Source: Rubrivirga sp. SAORIC476
GTDB lineage: Bacteria > Bacteroidota > Rhodothermia > Rhodothermales > Rubricoccaceae
Direction: 5' to 3'
Length of the DNA: 64,000 nucleotides
NCBI RefSeq assembly: GCF_002283555.1
Contig: NZ_MVOI01000003.1
Span: 1,905,578 to 1,969,577 of the forward strand
A program made the position numbers and the translations under genes. Under the pieces are notes generated by a model. That model was not told where the DNA came from, did not search any database, and saw only the letters and a program-made list of their open reading frames with translations. This document shows positions 27,836 through 57,771 of this stretch, one piece after another (the stretch's first letter is position 1; each line of letters begins with the position of its first letter).

Positions 27836-27884
27836 CGAACCGGGACCGGGCTCTTTCCGGGACGGCACGTCGTCCGGCTCCCTG

Positions 27885-35744: not shown

Positions 35745-36215
35745 ATGTCGCACACTTCGCCTCTGGGGCGTTTCGCCCTCCTGTTCGTCGTTTTCCTGTT
35801 CGTCGGCTGTGGGTCGGGCAACGGGGTCCGCGAGAATCGCGATCCCAACGTGGTCACGGCGGCCGACACGGACGGCCAGGCGCTGGCGCGTGTCGAGGAC
35901 ATGCTGCGCGGGCAGGTCGCGGGCGTACAGGTCCGCCAGGAAGCAGGCAACCTCGTCATCCGGATCCGCGGCACCGAGAGCATCCGAGCCGACGGCAACG
36001 CGGACCCTCTGTTCGTGATCGACGGGATCGCGGTTCCGCTCGGGGTGGGGGGCGCGCTCCAGGGCATCAACCCGCGCGACGTCGCCAGCATCCGTGTGCT
36101 GAAGAACGCCAGCGAGACCGCCATGTATGGGTCGCGTGGGGCCAACGGGGTCATCCTGATCACGACCGTCCGGCCGGACTCAGGAGGGCACGACGGCTCG
36201 GGCGCCGGGTCCTGA
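35745..36215 (+). CDS. stand-alone TonB-plug lipoprotein (SusC-type plug without barrel)
   Basis: 156 residues. The signal peptide RFALLFVVFLFVGCGSGNG has a lipobox (VGC), so it is a lipoprotein. The rest is a SusC-like plug domain: VEDMLRGQVAGVQVRQEAGN, RIRGTESIRADGNADPLFVI, then IRVLKNASETAMYGSRGANG and VILITT, which is the signature found in the SusC plug encoded 1 kb downstream. No beta-barrel follows. The ATG at 35745 begins the signal peptide. It precedes the susC promoter by about 100 nt, so it may be a separate transcript. It could interact with SusC barrels or bind ligand; the role is unknown. Confidence 0.8.
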   Translation: MSHTSPLGRFALLFVVFLFVGCGSGNGVRENRDPNVVTAADTDGQALARVEDMLRGQVAGVQVRQEAGNLVIRIRGTESIRADGNADPLFVIDGIAVPLGVGGALQGINPRDVASIRVLKNASETAMYGSRGANGVILITTVRPDSGGHDGSGAGS

Positions 36216-36304
36216 ATGCGCTTTTCCTGGGATGCGTGAGAGTGAAGGGCAGCGGAGGAGACGGCCAGGCAGCCGTGCCGCCCTACAGTCTCTAAAGCCC
36301 GATG

Positions 36305-36336
36305 TAAGCGTTTGCGCAATCTGGGGGAAACGCTTA
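36305..36336 (+). promoter_or_regulatory. paired operator-like inverted repeat at the susC promoter
   Basis: TAAGCGTTT (36305-36313) and AAACGCTTA (36328-36336) form a perfect 9-bp inverted repeat with a 14-nt spacer. Each arm contains an AANCGNTT core, the half-conserved centre of LacI-family operators; the CG centres are 22 bp apart. One arm covers the -33 element and the other the -7 element of the promoter below. It is a candidate site for a LacI-type regulator or another dimeric protein. No regulator gene is next to it. Confidence 0.55.
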
Positions 36337-36342
36337 AGCTTG
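36312..36342 (+). promoter_or_regulatory. Bacteroidota-type promoter of susC
   Basis: TTG (36312-36314), 20-nt spacer, TAAGCTTG (36335-36342), 7 of 8 matches to TAnnTTTG. It overlaps both arms of the operator-like repeat and lies 74 nt before the susC ATG. Confidence 0.6.
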
Positions 36343-36416
36343 GGTCGGCTGATAGCGCTTCCGGTCTCTGGTGGTGCGGTCGGTCGAACGGACACCCCAC
36401 ACACACCCCTACACAG

Positions 36417-39400
36417 ATGAGTCGGAACGCTACCCTCCTCGGGCTGGCCGCGCTCCTGTTTGCGTTCGGTGCGGCCCCCGCGGCCGTCGCGCAAACGGTA
36501 ACAGGCACAGTCGTGGACGCCTCCTCTGGCGACCCCCTGCCCTTCGTCAACGTCGTCATCGAAGGCACCACGCGCGGCGCCGCGACCAACCTCGACGGCG
36601 AGTACTCGATCGCGGTGGACGGCCCCGAGTCGGTCCTCGTCTACCGCTTCCTCGGCTACATCACGGCAACCGAGACGGTCGGCAGCCGCTCCGTCATCGA
36701 CGTGCGCCTCGAAGAGGACTCCGACATCCTCGACGAGGTCGTCGTGGTCGGCTACGGCACGCAGCGTCGCGGCGACGTGACGGCCTCGGTGTCGTCGGTT
36801 GATGTCGACGACGCCAACGAGGGGCTGGTGACCGCCCCGACGGACTTCCTGGAAGGCCGGGTGGCGGGTGTGAGCGTGATCGAGAGCTCGGGCGAGCCCG
36901 GCGCGAACGTCTCCGTCCGGATCCGTGGCGGCACGTCCATCACGGCGTCCAACGAGCCGCTCTATGTCATCGACGGCATCCCGGTCTCGGGCGACAACGT
37001 CACGCCCGGAGGCGCAGGCCAGGCCACGGCCGGCCCGGCGCGCAACCCGCTGACGCTGCTCAACCCGAACGACATCGCGTCGGTGACGGTCCTCAAGGAC
37101 GCCTCCGCGACGGCCATCTACGGCTCGCGCGGCGCCAACGGCGTGGTCCTGATCACGACCAAGAACGGGGCTCAGGGCCGCGTCACGGTCGACTATGAGG
37201 GCTCGTTCTCGATCTCGCAGGCCAGCGAGACGTTCGACGTGCTCACGGCCGACGAGTACCGCCAGTTCGTGACGACCAACTTCGGCGCGGGGACCCTCGC
37301 CGGTCCCGATCCATCGCTCAACACGGGCTCGATCAACAGCGACTTCGTCGGGGAGCTCTTCCGGCCTGCACCGACGCAGTCCCACAACCTGTCGTTCGGC
37401 GGCGGCACCGCGAACACGCAGTACCGCGCCAGCCTGAGCTACCTCAACCAGGACGGCATCGTGATCTCGTCCGGGCTGGAGCGCGTGACCGCGCGCCTCA
37501 ACGCGAGCAACCAGCTCTACGACAACAAGCTGCGGCTGAGCCTCAACCTGACGAGCGCCCTCACCGACGACGACTTCGTGCCGGCCAACGACACGGGCGG
37601 CTTCGAGGGCGGTCTCTTCCAGAACGCCATCCAGTACCGGCCGGTCGCCCCGGTCAACGACCCGAACGCCAACGACGGCTTCTACGAGGTCCCCGGCCAG
37701 CGGTCGTTCCGCAACCCGGTGGCGCTCGCCGAGCAGGTCGATGAGACGGCCCGCACCGTCCGTACGCTGGGCAACATCTCGGCGGAGCTGGACCTGATGG
37801 AGGGCCTGACGGCCTCGCTCAACGTGGGCGGTGACCGCTCGGTCGGCGCGCGGCGCTCCTACATCCCCGGTGCCAGCCCGATCGGCGCGGAGTTCACGAC
37901 GGCGACCACCAACGGCGGCTCCGGCTACCGGCGGACGCTGGAGCGGTCCTCGGCGACGCTCTCGACGTACCTCACCTACGGCACCAACGTCGGCAACAGC
38001 AACTTCGACCTGCTCGGCGGCTACGAGTACCAGCGGTTCAACTACAGCGAGACCTCGCTCCAGGCGGTCTCGTTCGTGACCGACTTCACGGAGGACAACC
38101 AGCTCCAGTCGGGCTCGGTCGTGGTCAACGCCAACAACGCCGGGCCGGGCTCCTTCTCGGCGCGCGCCGAGAACCTGCTGGCGTCGTTCTTCACGCGCAC
38201 CAACTACAACTACGACGAGCGCTACTACCTGACCGGCTCGCTCCGCTACGACGGCTCGTCGCGCTTCTCGGCCGACAACCGGTACGCGCTCTTCCCGGCC
38301 ATCTCGGGCGCCTGGCGCATCTCGGCGGAGCCGTTCTTCGACGGCGGCACGGCGGTCACCGACCTCCGTCTCCGCGCGGGCTACGGCGTCGTGGGCAACC
38401 AGGGCATCGGCGACTACCTGTACCTCCCGCTGCTCGGTGCCAACCCGGCCAACTCGGCGGTCCTCAACGGGATCATCGTGCCGGGCTACGCCCCCACGCA
38501 GCTCGAGAACCCGGATCTGAAGTGGGAGCAGAAGGAGGAGTTCACGGTCGGCCTCGACTACCGACTCCTGAGCGACCGCCTCTACGGCTCGGTCGAGTTC
38601 TACCGCAACACGACCAACGACCTGCTCCTGAACGTGCCGGTGCTCGCGTCGGTCGTGGCCAGCCAGGTCCAGAACGTCGGCTCGCTGCGCAACACGGGCG
38701 TCGACCTCTCGCTGGACGCGCTGCTCTTCGAGAACGACAACGCGTCGTTCACGCTCGGGCTCACGTTCAACACGAACCAGAACGAGGTGCTCGACCTCGG
38801 CGGTGCCAACCAGCTGTTCACCGGCCTCGTCTCGGGCGAGGGCCAGTCGAACGTGAACGCGCTCCTGCTGACGCCGGGCGAGGAGTTCCCGGTGTTCTAC
38901 GGCTTCGAGTTCACGGGCGACTTCGACAACGGTGCGGCCGTCTTCAACGACTACGAAGCCAGCGACCTCGACGGCGACGGCATCGTCGGCCCGCTCGAGC
39001 GCACGCTCGTCGGCACGACGACGGCGCCGGGCGACGATGACCGCGTCAAGATCGGCAGCCCGCGCCCGGACTTCACGTACGGCATCCGCCTCAACGCGGC
39101 GTTCGGCGATCTCGGCGTCCGCGCGTTCTTCCGCGGCGAGCAGGGCCGGGAGCTGCTCAACAACACGGCGCTCGTCTACGGGACGCGCGCGGTGGCCGGC
39201 AACCGCAACGTGCTCGACCTTGGCAGCGACTTCTACGCCACCGAGGACATCGGCGCGGCGGCCGTCTACTCGTCGCGCTACGTCGAGGACGCCTCGTTCC
39301 TGCGCCTCGACCAGCTCACGTTGGACTACGCGCTCGGCTCGATCATTCCGGAGGTCCGCAACGCGCGCGTCTTCGTGACGGGCAACAACCTGTTCGTGGT

Positions 39401-39533
39401 CACGCCCTACTCGGGTGTGGACCCCGAGGTGAACTCGAATGCCTCGACGGACGGCATCACGTCGATCGGGGTGGACTACCTGCCGTACCCCCGGGCGCGT
39501 ACGTTCACCGTCGGTGTCAACCTGAGCCTCTAA
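36417..39533 (+). CDS. SusC/RagA-family TonB-linked outer-membrane transporter
   Basis: 1,038 residues. A signal peptide ends at AAVAQ. A carboxypeptidase-regulatory-like domain follows (about 24-105, TGTVVDASSGDPLPFVNVVI, GEYSIAV), then a TonB-box-like EVVVVGYGTQRRGDV. The plug domain (about 125-245) ends with ASATAIYGSRGANGVVLITT, the SusC signature. A large beta-barrel runs to the C terminus (FTVGVNLSL). SusC proteins import oligomers handed over by SusD at the outer membrane using TonB energy. The susD gene follows after 60 nt that hold a UUCG hairpin. No anti-sigma-binding extension is present, so sigma/anti-sigma control is unlikely; an operator-like repeat sits at the promoter instead. 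Substrate unknown. Confidence 0.95.
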   Translation: MSRNATLLGLAALLFAFGAAPAAVAQTVTGTVVDASSGDPLPFVNVVIEGTTRGAATNLDGEYSIAVDGPESVLVYRFLGYITATETVGSRSVIDVRLEEDSDILDEVVVVGYGTQRRGDVTASVSSVDVDDANEGLVTAPTDFLEGRVAGVSVIESSGEPGANVSVRIRGGTSITASNEPLYVIDGIPVSGDNVTPGGAGQATAGPARNPLTLLNPNDIASVTVLKDASATAIYGSRGANGVVLITTKNGAQGRVTVDYEGSFSISQASETFDVLTADEYRQFVTTNFGAGTLAGPDPSLNTGSINSDFVGELFRPAPTQSHNLSFGGGTANTQYRASLSYLNQDGIVISSGLERVTARLNASNQLYDNKLRLSLNLTSALTDDDFVPANDTGGFEGGLFQNAIQYRPVAPVNDPNANDGFYEVPGQRSFRNPVALAEQVDETARTVRTLGNISAELDLMEGLTASLNVGGDRSVGARRSYIPGASPIGAEFTTATTNGGSGYRRTLERSSATLSTYLTYGTNVGNSNFDLLGGYEYQRFNYSETSLQAVSFVTDFTEDNQLQSGSVVVNANNAGPGSFSARAENLLASFFTRTNYNYDERYYLTGSLRYDGSSRFSADNRYALFPAISGAWRISAEPFFDGGTAVTDLRLRAGYGVVGNQGIGDYLYLPLLGANPANSAVLNGIIVPGYAPTQLENPDLKWEQKEEFTVGLDYRLLSDRLYGSVEFYRNTTNDLLLNVPVLASVVASQVQNVGSLRNTGVDLSLDALLFENDNASFTLGLTFNTNQNEVLDLGGANQLFTGLVSGEGQSNVNALLLTPGEEFPVFYGFEFTGDFDNGAAVFNDYEASDLDGDGIVGPLERTLVGTTTAPGDDDRVKIGSPRPDFTYGIRLNAAFGDLGVRAFFRGEQGRELLNNTALVYGTRAVAGNRNVLDLGSDFYATEDIGAAAVYSSRYVEDASFLRLDQLTLDYALGSIIPEVRNARVFVTGNNLFVVTPYSGVDPEVNSNASTDGITSIGVDYLPYPRARTFTVGVNLSL

Positions 39534-39555
39534 GTCGTCCCTGGTCTTTTTACCT

Positions 39556-39579
39556 GGGGCCGGTCTTCGGACCGGCCCC
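39556..39579 (+). terminator. UUCG-loop hairpin between susC and susD
   Basis: GGGGCCGGTC-TTCG-GACCGGCCCC, 10 perfect pairs closed by the very stable C(UUCG)G tetraloop, 23 nt past the susC stop and 15 nt before the susD ATG. CTTTTTACC lies upstream rather than downstream, so it is a pausing, attenuation or RNA-stability element more than a classical terminator. Confidence 0.65.
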
Positions 39580-39593
39580 GCCCCCACGATCCC

Positions 39594-41183
39594 ATGAACC
39601 GACTCTCTACACGCGCCCGCCTGGCCGTGCTGGCTGGTCTCCTCGCCCCGGCCCTCGGGCTGGCGGCGTGCACCGACCTCTCGGTGGACCCGTACAGCTC
39701 CGTCACGCCGGAGAACTTCTACCAGACCGACATCGAGGTCGTCGCGGCCCTGTCCCCGGTCTACTCCCAGCTGCGCGCGACGCTCTGGGACTACCACAAC
39801 ATGAGCCAGGTCACGTCCGACGAGACCATCGTCCCGACGCGCGGTGGCGACTGGTTCGACGGTGGCGACTGGCTGTCGCTCCACCAGCACTCCTGGACGC
39901 CGCAGCTCGGCTTCATCAACGGCGCCTGGAACACGTCCTACGCAGGCATCGCCCGGGCGAACAGCCTGCTGAGCGACCTCCAGACGATCGAGGTCCCCAA
40001 CAAGGACGGCCTCATCGCTGAGATCCGCGGCCTCCGCGCGTTCTACTACTACACGCTGCTCGACCTCTTCGGAAACGTCCCGCTCATCGGCGACGAGGAG
40101 GGCGAGTTCCGCGTCGACCCGGACAACCTGCCGCCGACGGAGACGCGCGCGACGGTGTACCAGTTCGTCGTCGACGAGCTCGAGGAGATCCGTGCCGACC
40201 TGCCGGTCGCAGGCGCGGGCAACGGCGGTCGCTTCTCGCAGGGCGCCGTCGACGCCATGCTGGCCAACATCTACCTCAACGCAGAGGTCTTCAGCGGCAC
40301 CACGACAGCCGGCGGCATCCAGCGTGGCCCGCAGCAGTACCAGAAGGCCATCGACGCGGCGACCCGCGTGATCAACGGCCCGTACGCGCTCAACCAGGGC
40401 TCCGCCGCGTGGTTCGACCAGTTCTCGCCGACCAACCAGGCCGACGAGGAGCACATCTTCGTGGTGCAGCACCTCGGGGCCGACGGGTACGGGCTGAACT
40501 TCCCGAACCGCGGCCTCCACTACAACTCGTTCGCGGGTGGGGGCTGGAACGGCTTCTCGACGATCGCGGAGACCTACGGCACCTTCGACGCCGACGACCC
40601 GCGCGTCGGCATCTTCGCCATCGGTCAGGCGATCAACTACGACACCGGCGAGCCGATCAACAACCGGGCGGGCGATCCGCTGATCTTCGATCTCGACTTC
40701 GAGAACGGCGTGACTCCGGCGGGTGGCGGTGCCAGTGAGGGCGATGGCGTCCGCATCGTCAAGTTCCCGGTCGACGTCAACCGCGAGACCAACGGCAACA
40801 ACAGCAACGACTACCCCTACTTCCGCCTCGCGGAGATGTACCTGATCCGGGCCGAGGCCAACCTCCGGCTGGGGAACCCCGGCCCGGCGCTCGCCGACAT
40901 CAACATGCTGCGTGCGCGCCTCTCGGGCGACGTCGACGGCGACGGCACCGACGACACGCCGGCCCCGCTGACGTCGGTCACGCTCGCCGACATCCTCAAC
41001 GAGCGGCTCTTCGAGCTGACCTACGAGGCGCGTCGCCGGCAGGACCTGATCCGGTTCGACCAGTTCACCCAGCGCGACTGGTCGTTCAAGAACGGCAGCC
41101 AGCCGTTCCGCGTGGTCTTCCCGATCCCGCAGACCCAGATCGACGCCTCGGACGGGCTGCTGATGCAGAACCCGGGCTACTAA
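39594..41183 (+). CDS. SusD/RagB-family surface lipoprotein
   Basis: 529 residues. Signal peptide with lipobox LGLAACTDLSVDP. A SusD-like N-terminal part (about 25-230) includes TPENFYQTDIEVVAALSPVY and IRGLRAFYYYTLLDLFGNVP; the C-terminal RagB/SusD region ends with FPYFRLAEMYLIRAEAN-like sequence (YPYFRLAEMYLIRAEANL), RLFELTYEARRRQDLIRF and FPIPQTQIDA. It binds substrate and acts as the lid of the SusC barrel. ATG at 39594 follows CCCCCACGATCCC. A 14-bp hairpin 20 nt past its stop ends the pair. Assignment is secure; the ligand is unknown. Confidence 0.95.
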   Translation: MNRLSTRARLAVLAGLLAPALGLAACTDLSVDPYSSVTPENFYQTDIEVVAALSPVYSQLRATLWDYHNMSQVTSDETIVPTRGGDWFDGGDWLSLHQHSWTPQLGFINGAWNTSYAGIARANSLLSDLQTIEVPNKDGLIAEIRGLRAFYYYTLLDLFGNVPLIGDEEGEFRVDPDNLPPTETRATVYQFVVDELEEIRADLPVAGAGNGGRFSQGAVDAMLANIYLNAEVFSGTTTAGGIQRGPQQYQKAIDAATRVINGPYALNQGSAAWFDQFSPTNQADEEHIFVVQHLGADGYGLNFPNRGLHYNSFAGGGWNGFSTIAETYGTFDADDPRVGIFAIGQAINYDTGEPINNRAGDPLIFDLDFENGVTPAGGGASEGDGVRIVKFPVDVNRETNGNNSNDYPYFRLAEMYLIRAEANLRLGNPGPALADINMLRARLSGDVDGDGTDDTPAPLTSVTLADILNERLFELTYEARRRQDLIRFDQFTQRDWSFKNGSQPFRVVFPIPQTQIDASDGLLMQNPGY

Positions 41184-41203
41184 CGCCTCGATGTGGTCTT
41201 CTC

Positions 41204-41237
41204 CGAGCGCCTCGCCCCCTCCCGGGCGGGGCGCTCG
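41204..41237 (+). terminator. 14-bp hairpin after susD
   Basis: CGAGCGCCTCGCCC (41204-41217) pairs with GGGCGGGGCGCTCG (41224-41237) with one T·G, loop of 6, followed by TCTGTGG. It lies 20 nt past the susD stop. Confidence 0.7.
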
Positions 41238-41318
41238 TCTGTGGATGCCGGCCGTGCCTCTGGCACGCCCGACCGCCACCGACCCGTTCGGCGAGGCGGA
41301 TGCCGACTCGTTCTCCCT

Positions 41319-44300
41319 ATGCGCCTGACTGCCTTTTCGTTGCTCGCTCTGCTCGGCCTCGGCGGCTGCAGCGGCGAGGCCGACCGCACCCTCTTCTCGT
41401 CGCTCGACGCGGCCGGTGCCGGTCTCGACTTCGAGAACCGGCTCGAGGAGAGCCAGGAGGTGAACGTGTTCACCTTCCGGCACTTCTTCAATGGGGCCGG
41501 GGTGGGGGTCGGCGACGTGGACGGGGACGGCCGGCCGGACGTGTTCCTGACCGCCAACCAGGGCCCGAACCGGCTCTTCCTGAACCGGACCGAGTCCGGC
41601 GGTCCCATCCAGTTCGAGGACGTGACCGAGGCCGCCGGGGTCGCGGGGACACGGGCCTGGAGCACCGGCGTCTCGGTGGCCGACGTGGACGGCGACGGGC
41701 GGCTCGATCTCTACGTCGCCAACGCGGGCGCCGTCGACGGCGGCGAGAGTGCCAACGAACTCTACCGCAACCTGGGGCCGGGGGCCGACGGGGTCCCCCG
41801 CTTCGAGGAGGTCGCCGAGGCCTGGGGCGTCGCCGACGAGGGCGTTTCGATCCACGGCGCCTTCTTCGACTACGACAGCGATGGGGACCTCGACCTGTAC
41901 GTGCTCAACAACTCGTTCGAGGCGTCGTCGTCGTTCCGGATGGGCCTCCGCGACGCACGTGACCTGCGCGACGAGCGCGGCGGCGACCGCCTCTACCGCA
42001 ACGACGCCGCGCCGGGCGAGGCGCCGCGGTTCGCCGACGTGAGTGCCGAGGCGGGGATCTACGGACCTGAGATCGCGCTCGGCCTCGGCGTCATGCTGGG
42101 CGACGTGGACGACGACGGGGACCTCGACGTCTACATCTCGAACGACTTCTTCGAGCGGGACTACTTCTACCTCAACCGCGGCGACGGCACCTTCGAGGAG
42201 GTGCTCGAGGGAGCGATGCCGGTCACGAGCCTCTCGTCGATGGGCGCCGACATGGCCGACCTCACCGGCGACGGTCGCCCCGAGGTGTTCACCGTCGACA
42301 TGCTGCCGTGGGACGATGACCGGCTCAAGGGATCGTCCAGCTTCGAGGGCCACAACCTGTACCGCGCCAAGGTGGCCAGCGGGTACCACCACCAGATCAT
42401 GCGCAACGCCCTCCAGCGCAACAACGCCGACGGGACGTACTCCGAGATCGCGTCCATCGCGGGTGTCGACGCGACCGACTGGAGCTGGGCGCCCCTCTTC
42501 GCAGACCTCGACCTGGACGCCCGCGCCGACCTCTACATCACCAACGGCATCCTCCGCGACGTCACCGATCAGGACTACATCGCCTTCATGGCCGATGTCG
42601 AGACGCAGGAGGCGATGCTGACCGGGGACGGGGTCGACTTCCTCCAGCTGATCCAGGCGATGCCGTCGACGCCGCTGGAGAACCTCGCCTTCGCGAACGT
42701 CTCCGGCGGCGACTCGGTGGCGTTCCGACGGGCGCCCGAGTGGGGGCTCAACGAGGCGGGCTACTCGAACGGCGCCGCGACCGTGGACTTCGACGGCGAC
42801 GGCGACCTCGACCTGATCGTCAACAACGTCAACGCGCCGGTGTCGCTGTACGAAAACCACGCCGCCGACCGGCTGGGGCGGCGGGCGCTGGCGATGGCGC
42901 TGGAGGGCGAGGGCGGCAACACGGGCGGCATTGGCGCGAAGGTGGCCGTGTGGAACGGCGGCGCGGTGCAGGTCCGCGAGGCCGTCCCCACGCGCGGCTT
43001 CCAGTCGAGCGTGGGCCCCGTGCTGCACGTCGGGCTGGGGGAGGCGACCGCGGCCGACTCCGTCGTGGTCCGCTGGCCGAGCGGCGCCGTTCAGGTGCTG
43101 GCGGACGTGCCCGCGGGCCGCATCACGCTCCGCGAGGCTGACGCATCCGGTGCCTTTCGTCTGCTGGTGCCACCGGCCACACCGGCCGGCCCCTTCCGCG
43201 ACGTGACTGCGGTGGCGGCGCCGGGGTGGACGCACGCTGCGAGCACGGGCGTCGACTTCGACCGCGAACTGCTCATGCCGCGCGCCTACTCGGCCGACGG
43301 CCCGGCGGCGGCCGTGGGCGACGTGGACGGCGACGGCGCCGACGACCTGTTCGTGGGGGGAGGCGCGGGCCAGCCGGGCGTGCTGTGGCTGCGGCGCGGC
43401 GACCGGTTCGACCTGCGGACCCCCGACTCCTTCGCAGCCCACGCCGCCGCCGACGACGTGGCCGCGATCTTCCTCGATGCCGATGGCGACGGTGACCTCG
43501 ACCTGTACGTCGGGTCGGGTGGCTACACGGACCCGGCCAGCCCCGCGCTCCGCGACCGCCTCTACCTCGGCGACGGCGCGGGCGGCTTCACCGAGGCGGG
43601 CGAGGGCGCCATCCCCACGACGACCGCCAGCACCGGCACCGTCGCCGCGGCCGATTGGGATGGCGATGGCGACATCGACCTGTTCGTCGGCGCCCGCGTC
43701 GAGGCGGGCGCCTACGGCACGAGCCCGCGCAGCGCGCTCCTCCGCAACGACGGCCGTCCCGGCGCGGCCCGCTTCGTGGACGTGACGCGCGCCACCGCGC
43801 CGGGCCTCGACGAGGCCGGGATGCTCGCCAGCGGCCTCTTCGCCGACATCGACGCCGACGGCGACCCGGACCTCGTGACGGCGGGCGAGTGGCAGCCGAT
43901 CACCGTCTGGACCAACGACGGCGGCCGATTCGCGCCCGCGCCCATCGCCGGCACTACGGGCCTGTGGCAGGGCCTGACCGCGGCCGACCTCGACGGGGAC
44001 GGCGACCCGGACCTCGTCGGTGCCAACTGGGGGCTCAACAGCCGCCTCCGTACCGAAGGCGGTCCGTTGCGCCTCCACGTCGGCGACTTCGATGGGAACG
44101 GCCGCATCGACCCGCTGCTGTCGGTCATGAATGGGGGCCGGAGCCTGCCGTTCGCGCTCCGCAACGAACTGACAGGCCAGTTGCCGAGCCTCAAGCGCGA
44201 GTACCTCACGCCGTCGACCTATGTCGGCAAGCGCGTCGAGGACCTGCTGACGCCTGCGCAGTTGGAGCGCGCGACGGTGTTCGAGGCCTCCGAGCTGGCG

Positions 44301-44669
44301 TCCGTGGTGGTGCTCAACGAGGGGGACGCGTGGCGCGTCCGGCGGCTCCCGTTCGAGGCCCAGCTCTCCCCGATGGTCGCCCTGCTCGCGCTCGACGCCG
44401 ACGGCGACGGCGCGCTCGACCTGCTGATGGCGGGCAACCGCGACGCCCTCAAGCCCGACCTCGGGCGGTTGGCGGCGTCGGCCGGGGCGTACCTGCGGGG
44501 CGATGGGCGGGGCGGCTTCGCGACCGTTGCCGGTGGCGTGAGCGGGTTCGTGGTGCGCGGCGAGACCCGCCAGCTGGTCCACCTCGGGGGGGCCGGGGGC
44601 GATCTCGTGGTGGCCGTCCGCCACGGCGCTGCACCGGTCGTGTTCGCGCTGGACGGGGCCGCGCCCTAG
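41319..44669 (+). CDS. CRTAC1-type surface lipoprotein: FG-GAP/VCBS repeats with ASPIC/UnbV domain (copy 1)
   Basis: 1,116 residues. Signal peptide MRLTAFSLLALLGLGGCSGE with lipobox (GGC). Many calcium-type FG-GAP/VCBS repeats follow, each around DVDGDGRPDVFL or DVDDDGDLDVYI. An ASPIC/UnbV domain lies at about 530-600 (VREAVPTRGFQSSVGPVLHV ... VRWPSGAVQVLADVP). A second propeller-like set of repeats runs from about 620 to 1,100 (GDVDGDGADDLFVGGGAG). Proteins of this layout are common beside SusCD pairs in Bacteroidota; their ligand is not known. ATG at 41319 starts the signal peptide. A hairpin follows the stop, then a paralogue. Confidence 0.9.
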   Translation: MRLTAFSLLALLGLGGCSGEADRTLFSSLDAAGAGLDFENRLEESQEVNVFTFRHFFNGAGVGVGDVDGDGRPDVFLTANQGPNRLFLNRTESGGPIQFEDVTEAAGVAGTRAWSTGVSVADVDGDGRLDLYVANAGAVDGGESANELYRNLGPGADGVPRFEEVAEAWGVADEGVSIHGAFFDYDSDGDLDLYVLNNSFEASSSFRMGLRDARDLRDERGGDRLYRNDAAPGEAPRFADVSAEAGIYGPEIALGLGVMLGDVDDDGDLDVYISNDFFERDYFYLNRGDGTFEEVLEGAMPVTSLSSMGADMADLTGDGRPEVFTVDMLPWDDDRLKGSSSFEGHNLYRAKVASGYHHQIMRNALQRNNADGTYSEIASIAGVDATDWSWAPLFADLDLDARADLYITNGILRDVTDQDYIAFMADVETQEAMLTGDGVDFLQLIQAMPSTPLENLAFANVSGGDSVAFRRAPEWGLNEAGYSNGAATVDFDGDGDLDLIVNNVNAPVSLYENHAADRLGRRALAMALEGEGGNTGGIGAKVAVWNGGAVQVREAVPTRGFQSSVGPVLHVGLGEATAADSVVVRWPSGAVQVLADVPAGRITLREADASGAFRLLVPPATPAGPFRDVTAVAAPGWTHAASTGVDFDRELLMPRAYSADGPAAAVGDVDGDGADDLFVGGGAGQPGVLWLRRGDRFDLRTPDSFAAHAAADDVAAIFLDADGDGDLDLYVGSGGYTDPASPALRDRLYLGDGAGGFTEAGEGAIPTTTASTGTVAAADWDGDGDIDLFVGARVEAGAYGTSPRSALLRNDGRPGAARFVDVTRATAPGLDEAGMLASGLFADIDADGDPDLVTAGEWQPITVWTNDGGRFAPAPIAGTTGLWQGLTAADLDGDGDPDLVGANWGLNSRLRTEGGPLRLHVGDFDGNGRIDPLLSVMNGGRSLPFALRNELTGQLPSLKREYLTPSTYVGKRVEDLLTPAQLERATVFEASELASVVVLNEGDAWRVRRLPFEAQLSPMVALLALDADGDGALDLLMAGNRDALKPDLGRLAASAGAYLRGDGRGGFATVAGGVSGFVVRGETRQLVHLGGAGGDLVVAVRHGAAPVVFALDGAAP

Positions 44670-44684
44670 GCCGCCCCTTACACT

Positions 44685-44709
44685 GTCCCTCTCCCCAGGG
44701 AGAGGGGAC
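44685..44709 (+). terminator. hairpin between the two CRTAC1-type genes
   Basis: GTCCCTCTCC (44685-44694), loop CCAG, GGAGAGGGGAC (44699-44709) with one bulged G. It lies 16 nt past the stop of copy 1. Confidence 0.6.
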
Positions 44710-44835
44710 GCTCGTTGTGACGCTGTGCTCACGTTCTCGATGACCCGACTCGCTTCTCGCTTCCCCATGATGCGTTCTGTACTCGTCGACACGCCTCGTC
44801 TCGTCCGCGGGACGAGGTCGGAGGGGCGCCGTGGG

Positions 44836-47800
44836 ATGGCACCGCCGTGGGCGTTCGCGGTGCTCCTCCTCGCGCTGGTCGGGTGTGGCGGCAGCGACCC
44901 GAACGCGCTGTTCGAGCGCCTCGACCCGGCCGCGACCGGCGTCACGTTCTCGAACGACCTCGCCGAGAGCGCCGAGTTCAACATCCTCAGCTACCTCTAC
45001 TACTACAACGGCGGCGGCGTGGCTGCGGGCGACGTGGACGGCGACGGTCGGCCGGATCTCTACTTCACCGCCAACGAGGGGCCGAACGCGCTCTACCTCA
45101 ACCGGACGGAGGACGGCGGGCCCATCCGATTCGAGGAGGCCACCGAGGCGGCCGGGGTCGCGGGCTCCAGCGACTGGACCACCGGCGCCACGCTCGCCGA
45201 CGTGGACGGCGACGGCGACCTCGATCTCTACGTCTCGGCGCTCGGCGCCTACAAGACGCAACGGGGCCGCAACGAGCTCTTCCTCAACGAAGGCCCCGGC
45301 GCGGACGGCGTCCCCCGTTTCCGCGAGGCCGCCGCCGAGGTGGGGCTCGACTTCGAGGGCTTCGGCACGCAGGCGGCGTTCTTCGACATGGACCACGACG
45401 GCGACCTGGACGCGTTTCTGCTCAATCACGCCGTCCACACCGACCGGACGTATGCGGCGCCCGAGAAGACGCGCCAGCGCGATGAGCGCTCCGGCGACCG
45501 CCTCTACCGCAACGACGCCGCGCCGGGCGAGACGCCGCGCTTCGTGGAGGTGACCGAGGCGGCGGGCATCGTCAGCGGCATCTCGGGCTACGGGCTCTCG
45601 GTCGTCCCGGCCGACCTCGACGGCGACGGGTGGACCGACCTCTACGTCGGCAACGACTTTCACGAGAACGACTTCGTCTACCTCAACAACACCGACGGCA
45701 CGTTCCGCGAGGTCTCCCGGACCGCACTCGCCCACTCGTCGCGCTTCTCGATGGGCGCCGACGCAGGCGACGTGGACGGCGACGGCCGGGCGGATCTCGT
45801 GGTCCTCGACATGATGCCGCGCCGCGAGGACATCCGCCAGCGCTCCGGCGGCGACGACACCTACGACATCGACTCGTTCAAGCGCGAACTGGGCTACGGC
45901 CCGCAGGTCGCCCGCAACTCGCTCCAACTCAACCGCGGCCCCGGCCCCGACGGCGTCCCGCGGTTCTCGGACGTGGCGACGTTCTCCGGCCTCGAAGCGA
46001 CCGACTGGAGCTGGGCCGCCCTCCTCGCCGACCTCGACCTCGACGGCCGTCGCGACCTCTTCGTGACCAACGGCATCTGGCGGCGGCCCAACGACCTCGA
46101 CTACATCAACTACATCGCCGACCCGGCCATCCAGCAAAACCTGGCGCAGGGAATGGGGGAGGAGAACCTGGCGCTGCTGGAGAAGATGCCCCAGGTGGCG
46201 ATCCCCAACGAGGTCTTCCGCGGCGTCGGCGGGTTCCGGTTCGAGGAGGCCGACTGGGGACTCGCCGATGAGGGCTTCTCGAACGGCGCGGCGACCGCCG
46301 ATCTGGACAACGACGGCGACCTCGACCTGATCGTCAACAACGTCAACGCGCCCGCGTCGATCTACCGCAACGGCGCCGCCGACGCCGGGGCGACGAGCCT
46401 GAGCGTGTCGCTGGAGGGCGAGGGTGGCAACACGAGCGGCATCGGCGCGCGGGTCGAGGTGTGGACCGACAGCCTCCGCCAGACCGCCGAGGCGCAGCCG
46501 ACGCGCGGCTACCTGTCGTCGGTGGACCCCCGCCTCGTTGTCGGTCTGGACGGCGTGGCTCAGGCGGCGCGCGTTCGCGTGACCTGGCCCGACGGGCGCG
46601 TGCAGACGCTCACCGACGTACCCGCCGGCCCGCTCCTCCTCCGCCAGTCCGACGCCGGTCCGCCCAGCGAGGCGCCCGCGCCGACGGCCACGCCGCGCCT
46701 GTTCGCGGAGGTCCCTGGGGCCGGCGCACCCGTGTGGCGGCACGTCGAGAACGTGTTCATCGACTTCAACCGCGAGCGGCTGATGCCCCACATGGTCTCC
46801 CGCCTCGGCCCCGCGCTGGCGGTGGCCGACGTGAACGGCGACGGCCGGGAGGATGTGTTCGTCGGCGGGGCACGGGGGCAGGCCAATGCGCTTTTCCTCC
46901 AGACCTCGGGCGGCGGCTTCGCCGAGGCGCCGGCCACCGCCTGGGCCGACCACGCCGAGGGCGAGGCCGTCGATGCGGTGTTCTTCGACGCGAACGGCGA
47001 TGGCGCGCTCGACCTCTACGTGGCGACGGCGGGCAACGAGTTCCGCGGCGCGCGCGACGAGATCCGCGATCGTCTCTACCTCGGCGATGGCGCGGGTGGG
47101 TTTACGTCCGCGCCGGCGGGGGCGCTACCGGATCGCTTCGTCCACGTCGGCGCCGTGGCGGCGAGCGACTGGGACGGCGACGGCGACACGGACCTCTTCG
47201 TCGGCGGGCGCGTGGTGCCGCGGGCGTATGGCATGCCCGCGCCGAGCGCGCTCCTCGTCAACGACGGCACCGGCCGCTTCTCGGAGGCCACGGCCGATCT
47301 CGCCCCTGGCCTCGCCGAGGTGGGCATGGTCAGCCGCGCCGCCTTCGGCGACGTGGACGGTGACGGCCGTGACGACCTGATCCTGGCGGGCGAGTGGATG
47401 GCGCCGACCGTCTACCGCGCCACCGGTACCGGCTTCGAGGCGCTCGACACCGGGCTGGCCGACGACACCGGCTGGTGGACCGCCCTCGACGCGGCCGACT
47501 ACGACGGCGACGGCGACCTCGACCTCGCGCTCGGCAACCTCGGTCTCAACTCGCGCCTCCGCGCCACGCCCGAGCACCCCGCCCGCCTCTGGCTCGCCGA
47601 CTTCGACGGCAACGACGCGCTCGACGGCATCCTGACCTCGTTCCGCGACGGCGACGACTACCCGCTCGCGACCGTCGGCGTGCTCCAGCAGCAGTTCCCG
47701 GAGCTGCGACGGACCTACCCGACCTACACCGAGTTCGGCGCGCGGACGGTGCCGGAGCTGTTCGGCAGCCGCGCCCGCGACGCCGAGCAGCGACGCGCCA

Positions 47801-48180
47801 CCACGTTCGCCAGCGCCGTCGCCTGGAACGACGGCACCGGCCGCTTCGCCCTCCGTCCGCTCCCCGACCTCGCCCAGATCGAGCCCGTCTACGCCATCGC
47901 CTCCGGCGACGTGGACGGCGACGGCGTGCTGGACCTCGTGCTCGGCGGCGGGCTGCTGGGCGTTCGCCCCAACCGGGGCCGGTACGATGCAGGCCACGGG
48001 CTGGCGCTGCTCGGCGATGGCGCAGGCGGCTTCGTGCCCACCGACCTCGGCGCGGGGCTCGTGCTCGACGGCGAGGTCCGCGCGCTCCGCTTCGTGGACG
48101 GCTCGCTGCTGCTGAGCGCCTCCTCCGACGGCCCGCTCCAGGCGTTCCGCGTCGGCCCCCAGGCCCTCGCATCCCGATGA
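44836..48180 (+). CDS. CRTAC1-type surface lipoprotein: FG-GAP/VCBS repeats with ASPIC/UnbV domain (copy 2)
   Basis: 1,114 residues, paralogous to the preceding protein along its whole length (for example NDFxENDFVYLNN against NDFFERDYFYLNR, and ATDWSWAxLxADLDLDxR in both). Lipobox in LLLALVGCGGSD. FG-GAP/VCBS repeats (DVDGDGRPDLYF), a central ASPIC/UnbV domain (AQPTRGYLSSVDPRLVVGL ... VTWPDGRVQTLTDVPAG) and a second repeat set (DVNGDGREDVFVGG). I chose ATG 44836 because it begins the signal peptide; upstream in-frame ATGs at about 44725-44772 are possible. The two copies are clearly diverged, so the duplication is old and both are retained, suggesting different ligands or a heteromeric surface complex. 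Confidence 0.88.
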   Translation: MAPPWAFAVLLLALVGCGGSDPNALFERLDPAATGVTFSNDLAESAEFNILSYLYYYNGGGVAAGDVDGDGRPDLYFTANEGPNALYLNRTEDGGPIRFEEATEAAGVAGSSDWTTGATLADVDGDGDLDLYVSALGAYKTQRGRNELFLNEGPGADGVPRFREAAAEVGLDFEGFGTQAAFFDMDHDGDLDAFLLNHAVHTDRTYAAPEKTRQRDERSGDRLYRNDAAPGETPRFVEVTEAAGIVSGISGYGLSVVPADLDGDGWTDLYVGNDFHENDFVYLNNTDGTFREVSRTALAHSSRFSMGADAGDVDGDGRADLVVLDMMPRREDIRQRSGGDDTYDIDSFKRELGYGPQVARNSLQLNRGPGPDGVPRFSDVATFSGLEATDWSWAALLADLDLDGRRDLFVTNGIWRRPNDLDYINYIADPAIQQNLAQGMGEENLALLEKMPQVAIPNEVFRGVGGFRFEEADWGLADEGFSNGAATADLDNDGDLDLIVNNVNAPASIYRNGAADAGATSLSVSLEGEGGNTSGIGARVEVWTDSLRQTAEAQPTRGYLSSVDPRLVVGLDGVAQAARVRVTWPDGRVQTLTDVPAGPLLLRQSDAGPPSEAPAPTATPRLFAEVPGAGAPVWRHVENVFIDFNRERLMPHMVSRLGPALAVADVNGDGREDVFVGGARGQANALFLQTSGGGFAEAPATAWADHAEGEAVDAVFFDANGDGALDLYVATAGNEFRGARDEIRDRLYLGDGAGGFTSAPAGALPDRFVHVGAVAASDWDGDGDTDLFVGGRVVPRAYGMPAPSALLVNDGTGRFSEATADLAPGLAEVGMVSRAAFGDVDGDGRDDLILAGEWMAPTVYRATGTGFEALDTGLADDTGWWTALDAADYDGDGDLDLALGNLGLNSRLRATPEHPARLWLADFDGNDALDGILTSFRDGDDYPLATVGVLQQQFPELRRTYPTYTEFGARTVPELFGSRARDAEQRRATTFASAVAWNDGTGRFALRPLPDLAQIEPVYAIASGDVDGDGVLDLVLGGGLLGVRPNRGRYDAGHGLALLGDGAGGFVPTDLGAGLVLDGEVRALRFVDGSLLLSASSDGPLQAFRVGPQALASR

Positions 48181-48411
48181 AAACCGACGCGATGCCTTGC
48201 GAGATGCAGGCTGTCTCCGCGACCTTGCAGGTACGGCACAGAAGCCCAGTGGCGGTATCCCGAACGGATGGGAGGGATCTCCGAGCCGATGCACCGAGGC
48301 CGCCCGTGCTGGCGGTCAGGCCTCGCGAGTTCGGGACGGCGAGGCGTGGGAGCGGATGGCGGTAAAGCCGTCTCCGCTCGCGACTGGATACAGAAGACCC
48401 CCGACGACCCG

Positions 48412-49749
48412 ATGACTGTGCGCCCCCTCGCTCTCCTCCTCGCCCTCGGCCTGCTCGCCGGGTGCCAGGCCCCCGACGGCCCGCCGCCGCCCGAGGCGGA
48501 GGACCCCGAACTGCTGCACGGCGCGTTCCAGCGGATCACCGACGTGATGACGTACGACATCACGAGCCCCCCGCAGGCTGCCCGCGTCTACGCCTACGTG
48601 TCGGTCGCCGCCTACGAGGCCCTCGCCCCGACCCGCCCCGACCGGGTCTCGCTCACAGGCCAGCTCCGCGACTTCGACGCGCCCCCCCCGCCCGGCGACG
48701 ACGTGCATGGCCCGACGGCTGCGCTCTGGGCCGCCCTCACCGTCGGCGAGGCGCTGACGTTCTCCGACGACCGGGTGGCCGAGTACCGTGCCGAGGCCGA
48801 GCAGGCGCTCCGCGACGCTGGGCTCGGCCGCGCCCGCCTCGCCGCCTCCACGGCGCACGGGGAGGCCGTCGCCCGGCACGTGCTCGCCTGGGCCGCCGCC
48901 GACGGCTATGCCCAGACGCGCAGCGGCCCGGCCTACACCATCTCCGACGAGCCCGGCACGTGGCGCCCGACGCCGCCCGCCTACATGGACGCCATCGAGC
49001 CCAACTGGGCCACGCTGCGCCCGTTCGTGCTCGACTCGGCCGCGCAGTTCAAGCCCGAGCCGCCGCCGCCGTACTCGCTCGCGCCCGGCTCCCCCTTCCG
49101 TCAGCAGGTCGACGACGTGGTCGCGGTGACGAACGCCATGACCGAGGAGCAGCGTGCCATCGCCAGCTTCTGGGACTGCAACCCGTACGTCATGCACACG
49201 CGCGGCCACGCCATGTTCGCCACCAAGAAGATCACGCCGGGGGGCCACTGGATGGGGATCGCCGCCATCGCCAGCCGCCTCGCGGGCGACGACACGGCAG
49301 GCGCAGCCGAGGCCTACGTCCGCACCGCCCTCGCCCTAGCCGACGGCTTCCTCTCGGTGTGGGACGAGAAGTACCGCAGCCGCCTCGTTCGCCCCGAGAC
49401 CGTGATCAACGAGCACATTGACGAGGACTGGGCCCCGCTTCTGCAGACGCCGCCCTTCCCCGAGTACTCCTCCGGTCACAGCGTCATCTCGGGCGCCGCC
49501 GCCGAGGCCCTCACGGCGCTCTACGGCGACGATGTCGCCTTCGACGACGACACCGAGGTGCCCTACGGGCTCCCCGTCCGCTCGTTCGGGTCGTTCCGTG
49601 AGGCGGCTGAGGAGGCGGCCATCAGTCGGCTCTATGGCGGCATCCACTACCGGATGGCCGCCGAGCGCGGCCTCGACCAGGGGCGTGGCATCGGCGCGTT
49701 CCACGTCGAGCGCCTCGACACGCGGACACCCAGCGTGGCCGGGCGGTAG
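48412..49749 (+). CDS. vanadium-dependent haloperoxidase-like PAP2-superfamily lipoprotein
   Basis: 445 residues. Lipobox in LLALGLLAGCQAPDG. The C-terminal half has the three motifs of the PAP2/vanadium haloperoxidase site: KYRSRLVRP (K-x6-RP), YSSGHSVISG (SGH) and SRLYGGIHYRMA (SR-x5-H). The acid phosphatase Asp after the last His is replaced by Ala, which fits haloperoxidases better than phosphatases. The N-terminal half is helical (VYAYVSVAAYEALAP). It could oxidise halides with H2O2 at the surface or periplasm, or be a phosphatase-like enzyme; sequence cannot decide. ATG at 48412 starts the signal peptide. It ends the SusCD/CRTAC1 locus. The 231 nt before it hold no recognised element. 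Confidence 0.85.
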   Translation: MTVRPLALLLALGLLAGCQAPDGPPPPEAEDPELLHGAFQRITDVMTYDITSPPQAARVYAYVSVAAYEALAPTRPDRVSLTGQLRDFDAPPPPGDDVHGPTAALWAALTVGEALTFSDDRVAEYRAEAEQALRDAGLGRARLAASTAHGEAVARHVLAWAAADGYAQTRSGPAYTISDEPGTWRPTPPAYMDAIEPNWATLRPFVLDSAAQFKPEPPPPYSLAPGSPFRQQVDDVVAVTNAMTEEQRAIASFWDCNPYVMHTRGHAMFATKKITPGGHWMGIAAIASRLAGDDTAGAAEAYVRTALALADGFLSVWDEKYRSRLVRPETVINEHIDEDWAPLLQTPPFPEYSSGHSVISGAAAEALTALYGDDVAFDDDTEVPYGLPVRSFGSFREAAEEAAISRLYGGIHYRMAAERGLDQGRGIGAFHVERLDTRTPSVAGR

Positions 49750-49905: not shown

Positions 49906-50319
49906 ATGCGTCGCCTCGCCGTTCTCCCCCTGCTCCTCGCCACGATCCTCGCCCTGCCCGGCTGCGACAGCGGCTCCGACGCCGTGGGGGTGACGGGCAC
50001 TTGGGAGGGCGTGGTCTACCGCGCCGAGATCCCCGATGCCCCCCGCTACCCGATCACGATCCGGATGCGGGACACCGGCGTGCAGATCACCGGCCAGGGG
50101 TTCGTCGAGGACCTGCCCGACGGTCGCTTCGACTTCGTCATCTACGACGGCTCCTTCCTCGACGGCAATCTGACGCTGGACATCCAGTACGACCGGGTGC
50201 CGTTCCTCGGGACCGTCGCGGGCGTGCTCACCAACGAGGATCCCGGTGAGTTCAGGGGCACCTTCGATGGCGCGGGGGACGCGCGGGGAAGCTTCATCAT
50301 CGAACTGACATCACGCTAG
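49906..50319 (+). CDS. small lipoprotein, 137 aa
   Basis: The N terminus MRRLAVLPLLLATILALPGC is a signal peptide with lipobox (LPGC). The remaining ~115 residues look like an all-beta small-barrel or lipocalin-like fold: VTGTWEGVVYRAE, RYPITIRMRDTGVQITGQG, FDFVIYDGSFLDGNLTLDI, then GEFRGTFDGAGDARGSFIIE. The opening TGTWxG is common in small Rhodothermia lipoproteins. No catalytic residues recognised. It stands between the haloperoxidase-like gene and the DUF1080 gene, same strand; its membership of either locus is unclear. Confidence 0.75.
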   Translation: MRRLAVLPLLLATILALPGCDSGSDAVGVTGTWEGVVYRAEIPDAPRYPITIRMRDTGVQITGQGFVEDLPDGRFDFVIYDGSFLDGNLTLDIQYDRVPFLGTVAGVLTNEDPGEFRGTFDGAGDARGSFIIELTSR

Positions 50320-50436
50320 TGATGGGGGAGGCCGGAGAGGTGTCGGCCCCGGACCTCGCCATCTGGACGTGAAAGGGCTTCCACTCGGGAAGGGAGTGGC
50401 CCTACATTGGCGGACCTTCACGGTCCATTGATCATC

Positions 50437-51162
50437 GTGCGCGTCTTCCTGTCGCTCCTCCTCTGTGTCGCGTTGTCGGCGTGCGGCGGCCTCGCCGGCG
50501 GCGCCGATGGGGCAGATGGCGCCTCGCCCGCCCGCGACCGCGCCGAGGCCGGGTGGGTGGACCTCTTCGACGGCGCCACGCTCGACGGCTGGCACGGCTA
50601 TGCCCGAGCCGACGCGCCCGCTGCGTGGTCCGTCCAGGATGGCCTGCTGACGTTCACGCCCGGCACCGACGATGGCGGCGACCTCGTGGCCCCCGGCACC
50701 TACGGCGACTTCGAACTGGAGGTCGAGTGGAAGGTGGCCGCCTGCGGCAACTCCGGCCTCTTCTACCGCGGCGAGGAGAGCGCCGACCTGGCGCCCATCT
50801 ACCGGACCTCGCTGGAAGCCCAGATCCTCGACGACACCTGCCACCCGGACGCGCGCTTCCCGAGCCACCGCGCGGGCGGCCTCTACGACCTCTACGCGCC
50901 CACCGCCCAGGTCTCACGGCCCGGCGACTGGAACACGCTGCGCATCGTCGCCGACGGAGCGCGCATCGAGCATGTCCTGAACGGCACCCGCATCGTAGAC
51001 GCCGAGCAGGGCTCGGCCGACTGGAACGCCCGGATGGCGGTCAGCAAGTTCCGCGACGCCGAGGCCTTCCCCGGCTACGGCACCCGGCGCGCGGGGATCG
51101 TCGGGCTCCAGGATCACGGCGACACGCTGCAGGTCCGCACCGTTCGCATTCGCACCCTCTAA
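50437..51162 (+). CDS. DUF1080 protein (3-keto-disaccharide hydrolase-like) lipoprotein
   Basis: 241 residues from a GTG at 50437; the lipobox is in VFLSLLLCVALSACGG. Two TTG codons upstream (50407, 50428) could extend it, but the first lies inside a possible -7 box (TACATTGG, 50403-50410). The DUF1080 jelly-roll is clear: GWVDLFDGATLDGWHGY, GDLVAPGTYGDFELEVEWKV, CGNSGLFYRGE, EAQILDDTCHPD, GGLYDLYAP, then DWNTLRIVADG and VGLQDHGDTLQVRTVRIRTL. Members of this family act on 3-keto-glycosides. The genes that follow encode the expected oxidase and isomerases, all on the same strand. Export as a lipoprotein puts it on the membrane side of the pathway. Confidence 0.88.
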   Translation: MRVFLSLLLCVALSACGGLAGGADGADGASPARDRAEAGWVDLFDGATLDGWHGYARADAPAAWSVQDGLLTFTPGTDDGGDLVAPGTYGDFELEVEWKVAACGNSGLFYRGEESADLAPIYRTSLEAQILDDTCHPDARFPSHRAGGLYDLYAPTAQVSRPGDWNTLRIVADGARIEHVLNGTRIVDAEQGSADWNARMAVSKFRDAEAFPGYGTRRAGIVGLQDHGDTLQVRTVRIRTL

Positions 51163-52559: not shown

Positions 52560-53345
52560 ATGTTCAACCCCACCATCGACCGCCGCTCCGCGCTCCGTCG
52601 GCTCTCGGCCGTGCTCGGCGGCGTCGCCACGGCGCCGCTCATGTCGGGCCTCCTCGCCGGGTGCTCCACGCCCGGTGGGTCCGACCTCGCGGCGTACCAG
52701 TTCCAGACGCTCTCCGAGCCGCAGCAGAACCTGTTGGCGGCCCTCGTGGACCAGATCATCCCGGCCACCGACACGCCCGGCGCAGCCGAGGCGGGCGTGC
52801 CGCAGTTCGTGGACCACATGCTGGCCGACTGGTACGCGCCCGAGGAGCGCGACGCCTTCCTCGCCGGCCTCGACGCCGTCGACCGCCGCGCCGAGGGCTC
52901 CTTCGTGGGCCTCGACGACGCGGCCCGCGCCACGCTCGTCGAGGCGATGGATGCCGAGACCTACGGCGAGCAGCCGGGCGCCGTCGGCAGCGAAGCGACA
53001 GCCGACGAGGACGCGCCCGACGGCGATGTCGCCGGGGCGGCCCAGGAGGGCACCTACCAGGCCAGCGAGGAGCAGGAGAACGAGGTCGCGGGCATGCAGG
53101 GAGACCTCGGCGAGGCGATGGAAGATTCCACCGAGGCGGCCCAGGAGGTCGTCACCGGCGAGGGGACGGCATCCGTCGGCGGCGCCCCGGAGGCGCCGCC
53201 GTTCTTCCGCCAGCTCAAGGAGCTCACGCTCGCGGGCTACTACACGTCGGAAGCCGGCGCCACGCAGGAGCTTCAGTGGCTCGCCTCCCCCGGCCGCTAC
53301 GACGCCGACGTTCCCCTCTCCGAGGTCGGCAGCGCCTGGGCCTGA
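52560..53345 (+). CDS. gluconate 2-dehydrogenase subunit 3-family protein (Tat-exported small subunit)
   Basis: 261 residues. The N terminus has a Tat motif RRSALRRL followed by a hydrophobic stretch ending in LLAGCS, so export by Tat and possibly lipid attachment are expected. The family core is present: LSEPQQNLLAALVDQIIPAT ... AGVPQFVDHMLADWY and, at the end, FFRQLKELTLAGYYTSE and LQWLASPGRYDADVPL. These small subunits escort GMC-type flavin dehydrogenases through Tat, and the GMC gene follows after 88 nt. Compared with relatives (about 170-220 residues), it carries an extra acidic, Ala/Gly/Glu-rich stretch between about residues 138 and 210. ATG at 52560 follows CACTCCGATCCC. Confidence 0.88.
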   Translation: MFNPTIDRRSALRRLSAVLGGVATAPLMSGLLAGCSTPGGSDLAAYQFQTLSEPQQNLLAALVDQIIPATDTPGAAEAGVPQFVDHMLADWYAPEERDAFLAGLDAVDRRAEGSFVGLDDAARATLVEAMDAETYGEQPGAVGSEATADEDAPDGDVAGAAQEGTYQASEEQENEVAGMQGDLGEAMEDSTEAAQEVVTGEGTASVGGAPEAPPFFRQLKELTLAGYYTSEAGATQELQWLASPGRYDADVPLSEVGSAWA

Positions 53346-56690: not shown

Positions 56691-56780
56691 CGAGCGAGGG
56701 GGGACGCGCGAAGGGTTCTGCCGATGGACACCCTCGCCGACGACGCCTCTTCGCCCCTCCTTCTCCACCACCCATCACCG

Positions 56781-57677: not shown

Positions 57678-57771
57678 GGGGGCCGGGTAGGAGGGGCCGG
57701 GTAGGCTCGCGTCTGAAACGCTGGGTCTGGCGTCAGGCCGTACCGTGTACCCCGCACCTCGTACCCGTCCC
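57678..57771. repeat. GGGCCGGGTAGG / GTACCC repeat tract before isomerase B
   Basis: Two GGGGCCGGGTAGG units at the left; CCGTACCGTGTACCCCGCAC and CTCGTACCCGTCCC at the right, ending at the ATG. Same G-rich/C-rich layout as other gaps in the window. Confidence 0.45.

Follow-up and report, generated by a model that had tools for sequence, protein, structure and literature searches.

What does a SusCD transporter import when its genes are followed by those for β-propeller lipoproteins of the CRTAC1 type and for a vanadium haloperoxidase? The question is raised by a block of six genes at positions 35745-49749 (+) of a 64,000-nucleotide stretch of DNA (the window) from Rubrivirga sp. SAORIC476 (contig NZ_MVOI01000003.1, positions 1,905,578 to 1,969,577), a member of the Rhodothermales with a G+C content of about 71%. 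The genes encode, in order, a plug-only lipoprotein, SusC, SusD, two CRTAC1/UnbV-type lipoproteins and a haloperoxidase lipoprotein. A first-pass annotation, made from the letters alone, had named these families and described all six products as exported or outer-membrane proteins, and both statements are borne out by domain matches and signal sequences: a lipobox is present in five of the six proteins and an ordinary signal peptide in the sixth, SusC. The genes for SusC and SusD are adjacent, as the definition of a SusCD locus asks (TIGR04056; PF07980/PF14322), and this SusD is the sole PF14322 match in the genome.

Relatives of the block were collected in two samples: a scan of named genomes for haloperoxidase homologues gave 80 loci, and a phylum-wide search of 392 Bacteroidota genomes, of which 72 have a haloperoxidase, gave 97 neighbourhoods. 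Genes in these loci are crude open reading frame picks made without a gene finder, and the counts are approximate. Among the 80 loci, the order SusC-SusD-CRTAC1 (one to three copies)-haloperoxidase recurs in Marivirga, Pontibacter, Adhaeribacter, Chitinophaga, Flaviramulus and Roseithermus, and in Gemmatimonadota. In the phylum-wide sample a same-strand CRTAC1 gene lies within 10 kb of the haloperoxidase gene in 77 of the 97 neighbourhoods, and within 6 kb upstream in 69, where chance would be expected to place one in about 1% (estimated from roughly 1-14 UnbV genes per 2-7 Mb genome). SusC or SusD is found near the haloperoxidase in at least 49 of the 97, a lower bound since the 20-kb windows taken often stop short of SusC. 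When SusD was searched for in 80 chosen genomes, the matches in haloperoxidase-carrying genomes lay near the haloperoxidase gene in six of six cases above 300 bits, and in 5 of 41 below 120 bits. The closest SusD homologues adjoin CRTAC1 genes or a haloperoxidase, and in Rhodothermales without haloperoxidase the best SusD matches examined adjoin CRTAC1 and plug genes. In Rhodothermales, short homologues of the plug lipoprotein are encoded next to SusCD-CRTAC1 loci, and in loci of both Rhodothermales and Gemmatimonadota they stand beside the haloperoxidase of vanadium iodoperoxidase (VIPO) type; in these two groups the plug lipoprotein belongs to the module. With gene order, the linkage of CRTAC1 to SusCD and the positions of the SusD matches all conserved, the block is almost certainly one system. 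The first-pass annotation had supposed as much and had suggested looking for the same gene order elsewhere; that order is kept across two phyla, and the homologues are not independently scattered. A chance neighbourhood of unrelated surface genes could draw on the fact that every family here is individually common in Bacteroidota, but it is already refuted by a gene order that many genera of two phyla share, and its probability is negligible.

The last gene of the block had been described as PAP2/vanadium-haloperoxidase-like, and this call can now be made far more firmly. Pfam gives a weak PAP2 match alone; against solved structures, the protein is matched over its whole length (residues 7-437) by the vanadium-dependent haloperoxidase 4cit/4usz, with E 5.9e-147, and an identity as a PAP2 phosphatase only was set aside as superseded by this match. 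The structure 4usz is that of the Zobellia vanadium iodoperoxidase (PMC5064120). The window protein is a diverged, full-length homologue of this enzyme, ZgVIPO1 of Zobellia galactanivorans, from which it differs in being encoded inside a SusCD-CRTAC1 block. None of the vanadate-binding residues (Lys, Arg, Ser-Gly-His, Arg and His) is missing, and they show no or almost no variation in 178 sequences; with these residues intact, it is very likely that the window protein is a working vanadium enzyme. In another member of the Rhodothermales, three of the four haloperoxidase copies contain one in-frame stop each (G011, at C1:71582, C25:1214 and C4:38786), which suggests that the family is decaying in that lineage.

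Vanadium haloperoxidases and acid phosphatases have a common fold and active site, so that the haloperoxidase-fold protein might instead be a phosphatase acting on a phosphorylated glycoconjugate, for example kojibiosyl- or glucosyl-glycerol phosphate. The presence in several loci of glycoside hydrolase family 65 (GH65) enzymes of the kojibiose-hydrolase type, of glycerol kinase and of GlpD would accord with such a ligand. Against this, the annotation of the nearest solved homologue is that of a vanadium-dependent haloperoxidase, its match extends along the entire protein, and the glycerol genes are limited to a few genera; a phosphatase is improbable.

The two large lipoproteins encoded between SusD and the haloperoxidase are 49% identical to one another, which suggests that the pair arose by an old duplication. 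In CRTAC1 A, Pfam places FG-GAP repeats on either side of the UnbV_ASPIC domain, an arrangement that would indicate an additional C-terminal propeller, and thus two propellers in this protein. The structure most similar in fold to its AlphaFold2 model (pLDDT 89.6, pTM 0.90) is that of murine cartilage acidic protein 1 (CRTAC1; 9etn, TMt 0.70), which is also reached by profile search (E 2e-29). The window protein resembles CRTAC1 in its FG-GAP propeller and UnbV_ASPIC domain, and differs from it in being a lipoprotein and in its predicted second propeller. Both proteins, each with a lipobox, fill the slot after SusD where surface ligand-binding lipoproteins sit in polysaccharide-utilisation loci (PULs), and their position, lipid anchor and fold are consistent with a role as surface-binding or receptor proteins, or as a scaffold. 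Because CRTAC1 and SusCD are found together in Rhodothermales loci that have no haloperoxidase, their association has no need of that enzyme; the order in such loci (L239, L243, L245-L248 and other Rhodothermales) is plug-SusC-SusD-CRTAC1-CRTAC1. In four further loci (L164, L170, L172 and L181) a redoxin (AhpC/TSA) and a weakly Cu2_monoox_C-like protein are encoded between SusD and CRTAC1, a variant hinting at peroxide or redox chemistry.

A possible nature of the ligand is suggested by the enzymes encoded next to the block in relatives. Among the 80 loci, the neighbours of the haloperoxidase include a GH37 trehalase in 26 (often as the immediate next gene), GH13 in 23 and GH65 in 15, together with sodium:solute symporters in 27 and ROK kinases in 10; glucokinase is also found beside the block. 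The GH65 neighbours are of the type of 7fe3, which we take to be a kojibiose hydrolase. One Rhodothermia locus has instead a PfkB-family sugar kinase and a GH13 enzyme judged by eye to be amylosucrase-like. Haloperoxidase and a strong GH37 match co-occur in 39 of the 392 Bacteroidota genomes (Fisher p 3e-13, ignoring kinship), and in 12 of these 39 the GH37 gene is within 10 kb of the haloperoxidase gene. In a Rhodothermales locus that lacks the haloperoxidase (G019), the order is LacI-SusC-SusD-plug-CRTAC1-CRTAC1, and SSF, GH13, MFS and GH37 genes come next within a stretch of about 20 kb. The factor common to the loci is the alpha-linked disaccharide, and many sugars of this kind are compatible solutes. 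In six loci (L059, L067, L069, L074, L081 and L106) genes resembling those for glycerol kinase and/or glycerol-3-phosphate dehydrogenase were seen by eye near the haloperoxidase, and these are compatible with glucosylglycerol as a ligand.

The first-pass annotation had favoured an importer dedicated to a substrate that is not a glycan or is linked to halogen or peroxide, and had tied this idea to relatives having no glycan-degrading genes just outside the conserved block. On that point it is overturned, because trehalase, GH65, GH13, 3-keto hydrolase, glucokinase and sugar symporter genes recur there. The haloperoxidase is nonetheless real, with a conserved active site, and the glycosidases sought were not found in many loci, notably those of the type SusC-SusD-CRTAC1-haloperoxidase-CRTAC1 (such as L193, L196, L199 and L203); a small probability is still allowed to such an importer.

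In the window, too, the earlier statement that no glycan-degrading enzyme is near does not hold. A gene for a 3-keto-disaccharide hydrolase (DUF1080) lipoprotein begins 658 bp past the haloperoxidase gene on the same strand, and is followed by genes for a permease, dehydrogenases, TIM-barrel enzymes and ThuA. The sugar-cleaving enzyme looked for in a SusCD locus is thus provided by this PF06439 protein downstream, and by GH37, GH65 and GH13 enzymes in relatives. A single cluster holds the hydrolase, a GMC dehydrogenase with its small subunit, a Gfo/Idh/MocA oxidoreductase and the TIM-barrel enzymes, and as judged from these families it would probably bring about C3 oxidation of a disaccharide. 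The cluster lies behind the block in two congeners: in G003 it extends to TIM barrel 2, and in L056 it can be followed up to the end of a short contig. The ThuA gene is set off by a gap of 1.9 kb holding an opposite-strand gene, and its place in the same transcription unit is unproven. The hydrolase and the oxidoreductase match the neighbouring PDB entries 8tda and 8tdf/8tdh, presumably the products of one Bacteroides 3-keto cluster. In having a DUF1080 hydrolase near sugar dehydrogenase, oxidoreductase and epimerase-like genes, the window cluster resembles the 3-keto-glycoside pathway (BT2157 in Bacteroides; LacABC-DUF1080 in Caulobacter), from which it differs in sitting right behind a haloperoxidase-CRTAC1 SusCD block. 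BT2157, a member of the DUF1080 family, is cited as a 3-ketotrehalose hydrolase by Price et al. (PMC9007349).

We propose that the block is an outer-membrane acquisition module for trehalose-type alpha-glucosides or disaccharides, or their conjugates, and not a non-glycan system. Candidate ligands would be trehalose, sucrose, kojibiose and glucosylglycerol, as well as conjugates that contain one of these. SusD would act as the lid of SusC, which would take in the ligand using TonB energy; the CRTAC1 double-propeller lipoproteins, at the surface in a SusE/F-type place, would capture the ligand or scaffold the complex; and the surface haloperoxidase might oxidise iodide or bromide with ambient hydrogen peroxide, so removing peroxide and making a local oxidant. 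Cleavage of the sugar in the periplasm would be left to each lineage's own enzymes, namely GH37 trehalase, GH65 or GH13 in relatives, and in the window genome probably the 3-keto enzymes: the GMC dehydrogenase would oxidise the sugar at C3, the DUF1080 lipoprotein would hydrolyse the product, and the Gfo/Idh/MocA and TIM-barrel proteins would then reduce or isomerise it. This suggests a single import module served by differing cleavage chemistries (GH37, GH65, GH13 or 3-keto).

Several points weigh against this proposal. No GH37, GH65 or GH13 gene was found within 10 kb in 74 of the 97 phylum-sample loci, and no GH37 gene nearby in Roseithermus and the other closest relatives outside the genus; the trehalase of the window genome itself is encoded 270 kb from the block. 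Bacteroidota commonly have DUF1080, Gfo/Idh/MocA and TIM-barrel proteins, so that finding them next to the block in a single genus counts for little. It is not obvious that free disaccharides need SusCD, and nothing ties halide oxidation directly to sugar uptake. Because of the 74 loci without these enzymes, the distant trehalase and the commonness of the 3-keto families, we hold the disaccharide proposal with about even confidence.

The same neighbourhoods might also be read as showing that the CRTAC1-haloperoxidase pair is the true unit, devoted to surface halide oxidation (for iodine capture, chemical defence or peroxide removal), with SusCD and the sugar genes as partners that are often present but secondary. 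CRTAC1 is indeed the most constant neighbour, at 77 of 97 against 49 for SusC/D and 20 for GH37/65, and the closest characterised relative of the haloperoxidase is an iodoperoxidase. In Arenibacter, iodine uptake needs glucose or a peroxide source, glucose oxidase acting together with a haloperoxidase has been proposed, and the genome has at least five VIPO1 homologues (PMC5064120), while a Zobellia paralogue is upregulated on one brown alga (PMC9296495). Yet the SusC-SusD-plug-CRTAC1 loci without haloperoxidase tie CRTAC1 to SusCD at least as much, and the figure of 49 is a minimum; we judge this explanation unlikely, without being far-fetched.

To return to the disaccharide proposal, the gene context suggests that sugar uptake and an enzyme of halogen oxidation operate side by side. 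The role of the haloperoxidase is the most conditional part of the proposal; the most economical idea would be that the enzyme uses ambient peroxide to oxidise iodide or bromide on the cell surface. A stronger version, in which the haloperoxidase and the propellers are stable parts of the SusCD complex, and halide oxidation is coupled mechanistically to the capture of trehalose-type sugars or glycolipids, is possible but doubtful; a conjugate might, for example, be opened by oxidation before it is taken in, or the import complex might be shielded.

A putative operator lies upstream of SusC. The exact GTAAGCGTTTGCGCAA site has a single occurrence in the genome, and a second species of the genus has it in the corresponding position upstream of SusC. 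Related sites in L086 lie between a divergent LacI-family-like gene and SusC, and in G019 a LacI-like gene adjoins the block, both regulators being called by eye from their N-termini; no LacI-like regulator gene was identified within the window. A genome search for further copies turned up just one more site, a weak one, and the pattern reversed as a control was matched more often than the pattern itself; only the exact, position-conserved site is used here as evidence. From these data the element may be a LacI site, and LacI-type control would suit a small-sugar locus. A copy with two mismatches is found at G000:C3:886489; a different FG-GAP gene, at 890 kb, lies some 3.6 kb away.

The locus resembles PULs in that SusC and SusD are followed by large surface lipoproteins and then, downstream, by a sugar-cleaving lipoprotein. 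It differs in that the enzymes near the block act on disaccharides, with no polysaccharide-depolymerising enzyme seen; in that the recurrent lipoproteins are CRTAC1 propellers and a vanadium haloperoxidase; and in its apparent LacI-type control in place of hybrid two-component or extracytoplasmic function (ECF) control. No description of UnbV and haloperoxidase together, or of a SusC/SusD/CRTAC1/haloperoxidase locus, was found in the open-access papers searched, and novelty is provisional; this widely conserved set of surface proteins (channel, lid, propellers and vanadium haloperoxidase) has apparently been undescribed so far. Bacterial vanadium haloperoxidases, about whose part in nature little is settled, thereby gain as recurrent genetic partners a SusCD importer, the CRTAC1 propellers and enzymes for alpha-disaccharides, and their function becomes open to genetic tests in the culturable genera Fulvivirga, Roseivirga, Marivirga or Chitinophaga; and bacterial CRTAC1/UnbV proteins gain a functional context as SusCD partners.

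Table 1. Features of the block and of the region downstream (window positions)
Feature	Position	Strand	Evidence and remarks
Plug-only lipoprotein (SusC-type TonB-dependent receptor plug)	35745..36215	+	156 aa; PF07715 E 4e-14; TIGR04057; lipobox FVGC
Putative LacI-type operator upstream of SusC	36304..36335	+	GTAAGCGTTTGCGCAA, then AAACGCTT inverted half-site
SusC/RagA TonB-dependent transporter	36417..39533	+	1038 aa; TIGR04056 737 bits; CarbopepD_reg_2, Plug and barrel domains
SusD/RagB lipoprotein	39594..41183	+	529 aa; PF07980 E 2e-31; PF14322; lipobox
CRTAC1/UnbV-type lipoprotein A	41319..44669	+	1116 aa; PF13517 x8; PF07593; lipobox
CRTAC1/UnbV-type lipoprotein B	44836..48180	+	~1114 aa; PF13517 x12; PF07593; start at 44836 gives lipobox LVGC; alternative ATG at 44740 possible
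Vanadium-dependent haloperoxidase lipoprotein (Zobellia VIPO1 homologue)	48412..49749	+	~445 aa; 4cit/4usz; start best set at 48412, giving lipobox LAGC
Small lipoprotein	49906..50319	+	no Pfam family; genus-conserved, 51-54% identity in G003 and L056
3-Keto-disaccharide hydrolase (DUF1080) lipoprotein	50407..51162	+	PF06439 E 4e-44; PDB 8tda, 8rr2, others
NupG-family H+ symporter	51175..52476	+	PF03825 E 2e-101
Gluconate_2-dh3-type small subunit of GMC dehydrogenase (twin-arginine/lipoprotein signal)	52560..53345	+	PF13618 E 2e-32; start by eye
GMC sugar dehydrogenase, putative glycoside 3-dehydrogenase	53434..55203	+	PF05199, PF00732; nearest PDB fructose dehydrogenase large subunit
Gfo/Idh/MocA oxidoreductase (exported)	55257..56690	+	PF01408; PDB 8tdf/8tdh E 2e-54
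Xylose-isomerase-like TIM barrel 1	56724..57677	+	PF01261
Xylose-isomerase-like TIM barrel 2	57745..58656	+	PF01261; nearest PDB 3ngf, 1k77, D-psicose 3-epimerase
ThuA-family lipoprotein ('trehalose utilisation')	60573..61298	+	PF06283 E 3e-76

The region is flanked by genes for secreted proteins with a Por_Secre_tail (type IX sorting) domain, at window positions 26129-32359 and 58690-60429, some of which also have FG-GAP_2 or RCC1 repeats.

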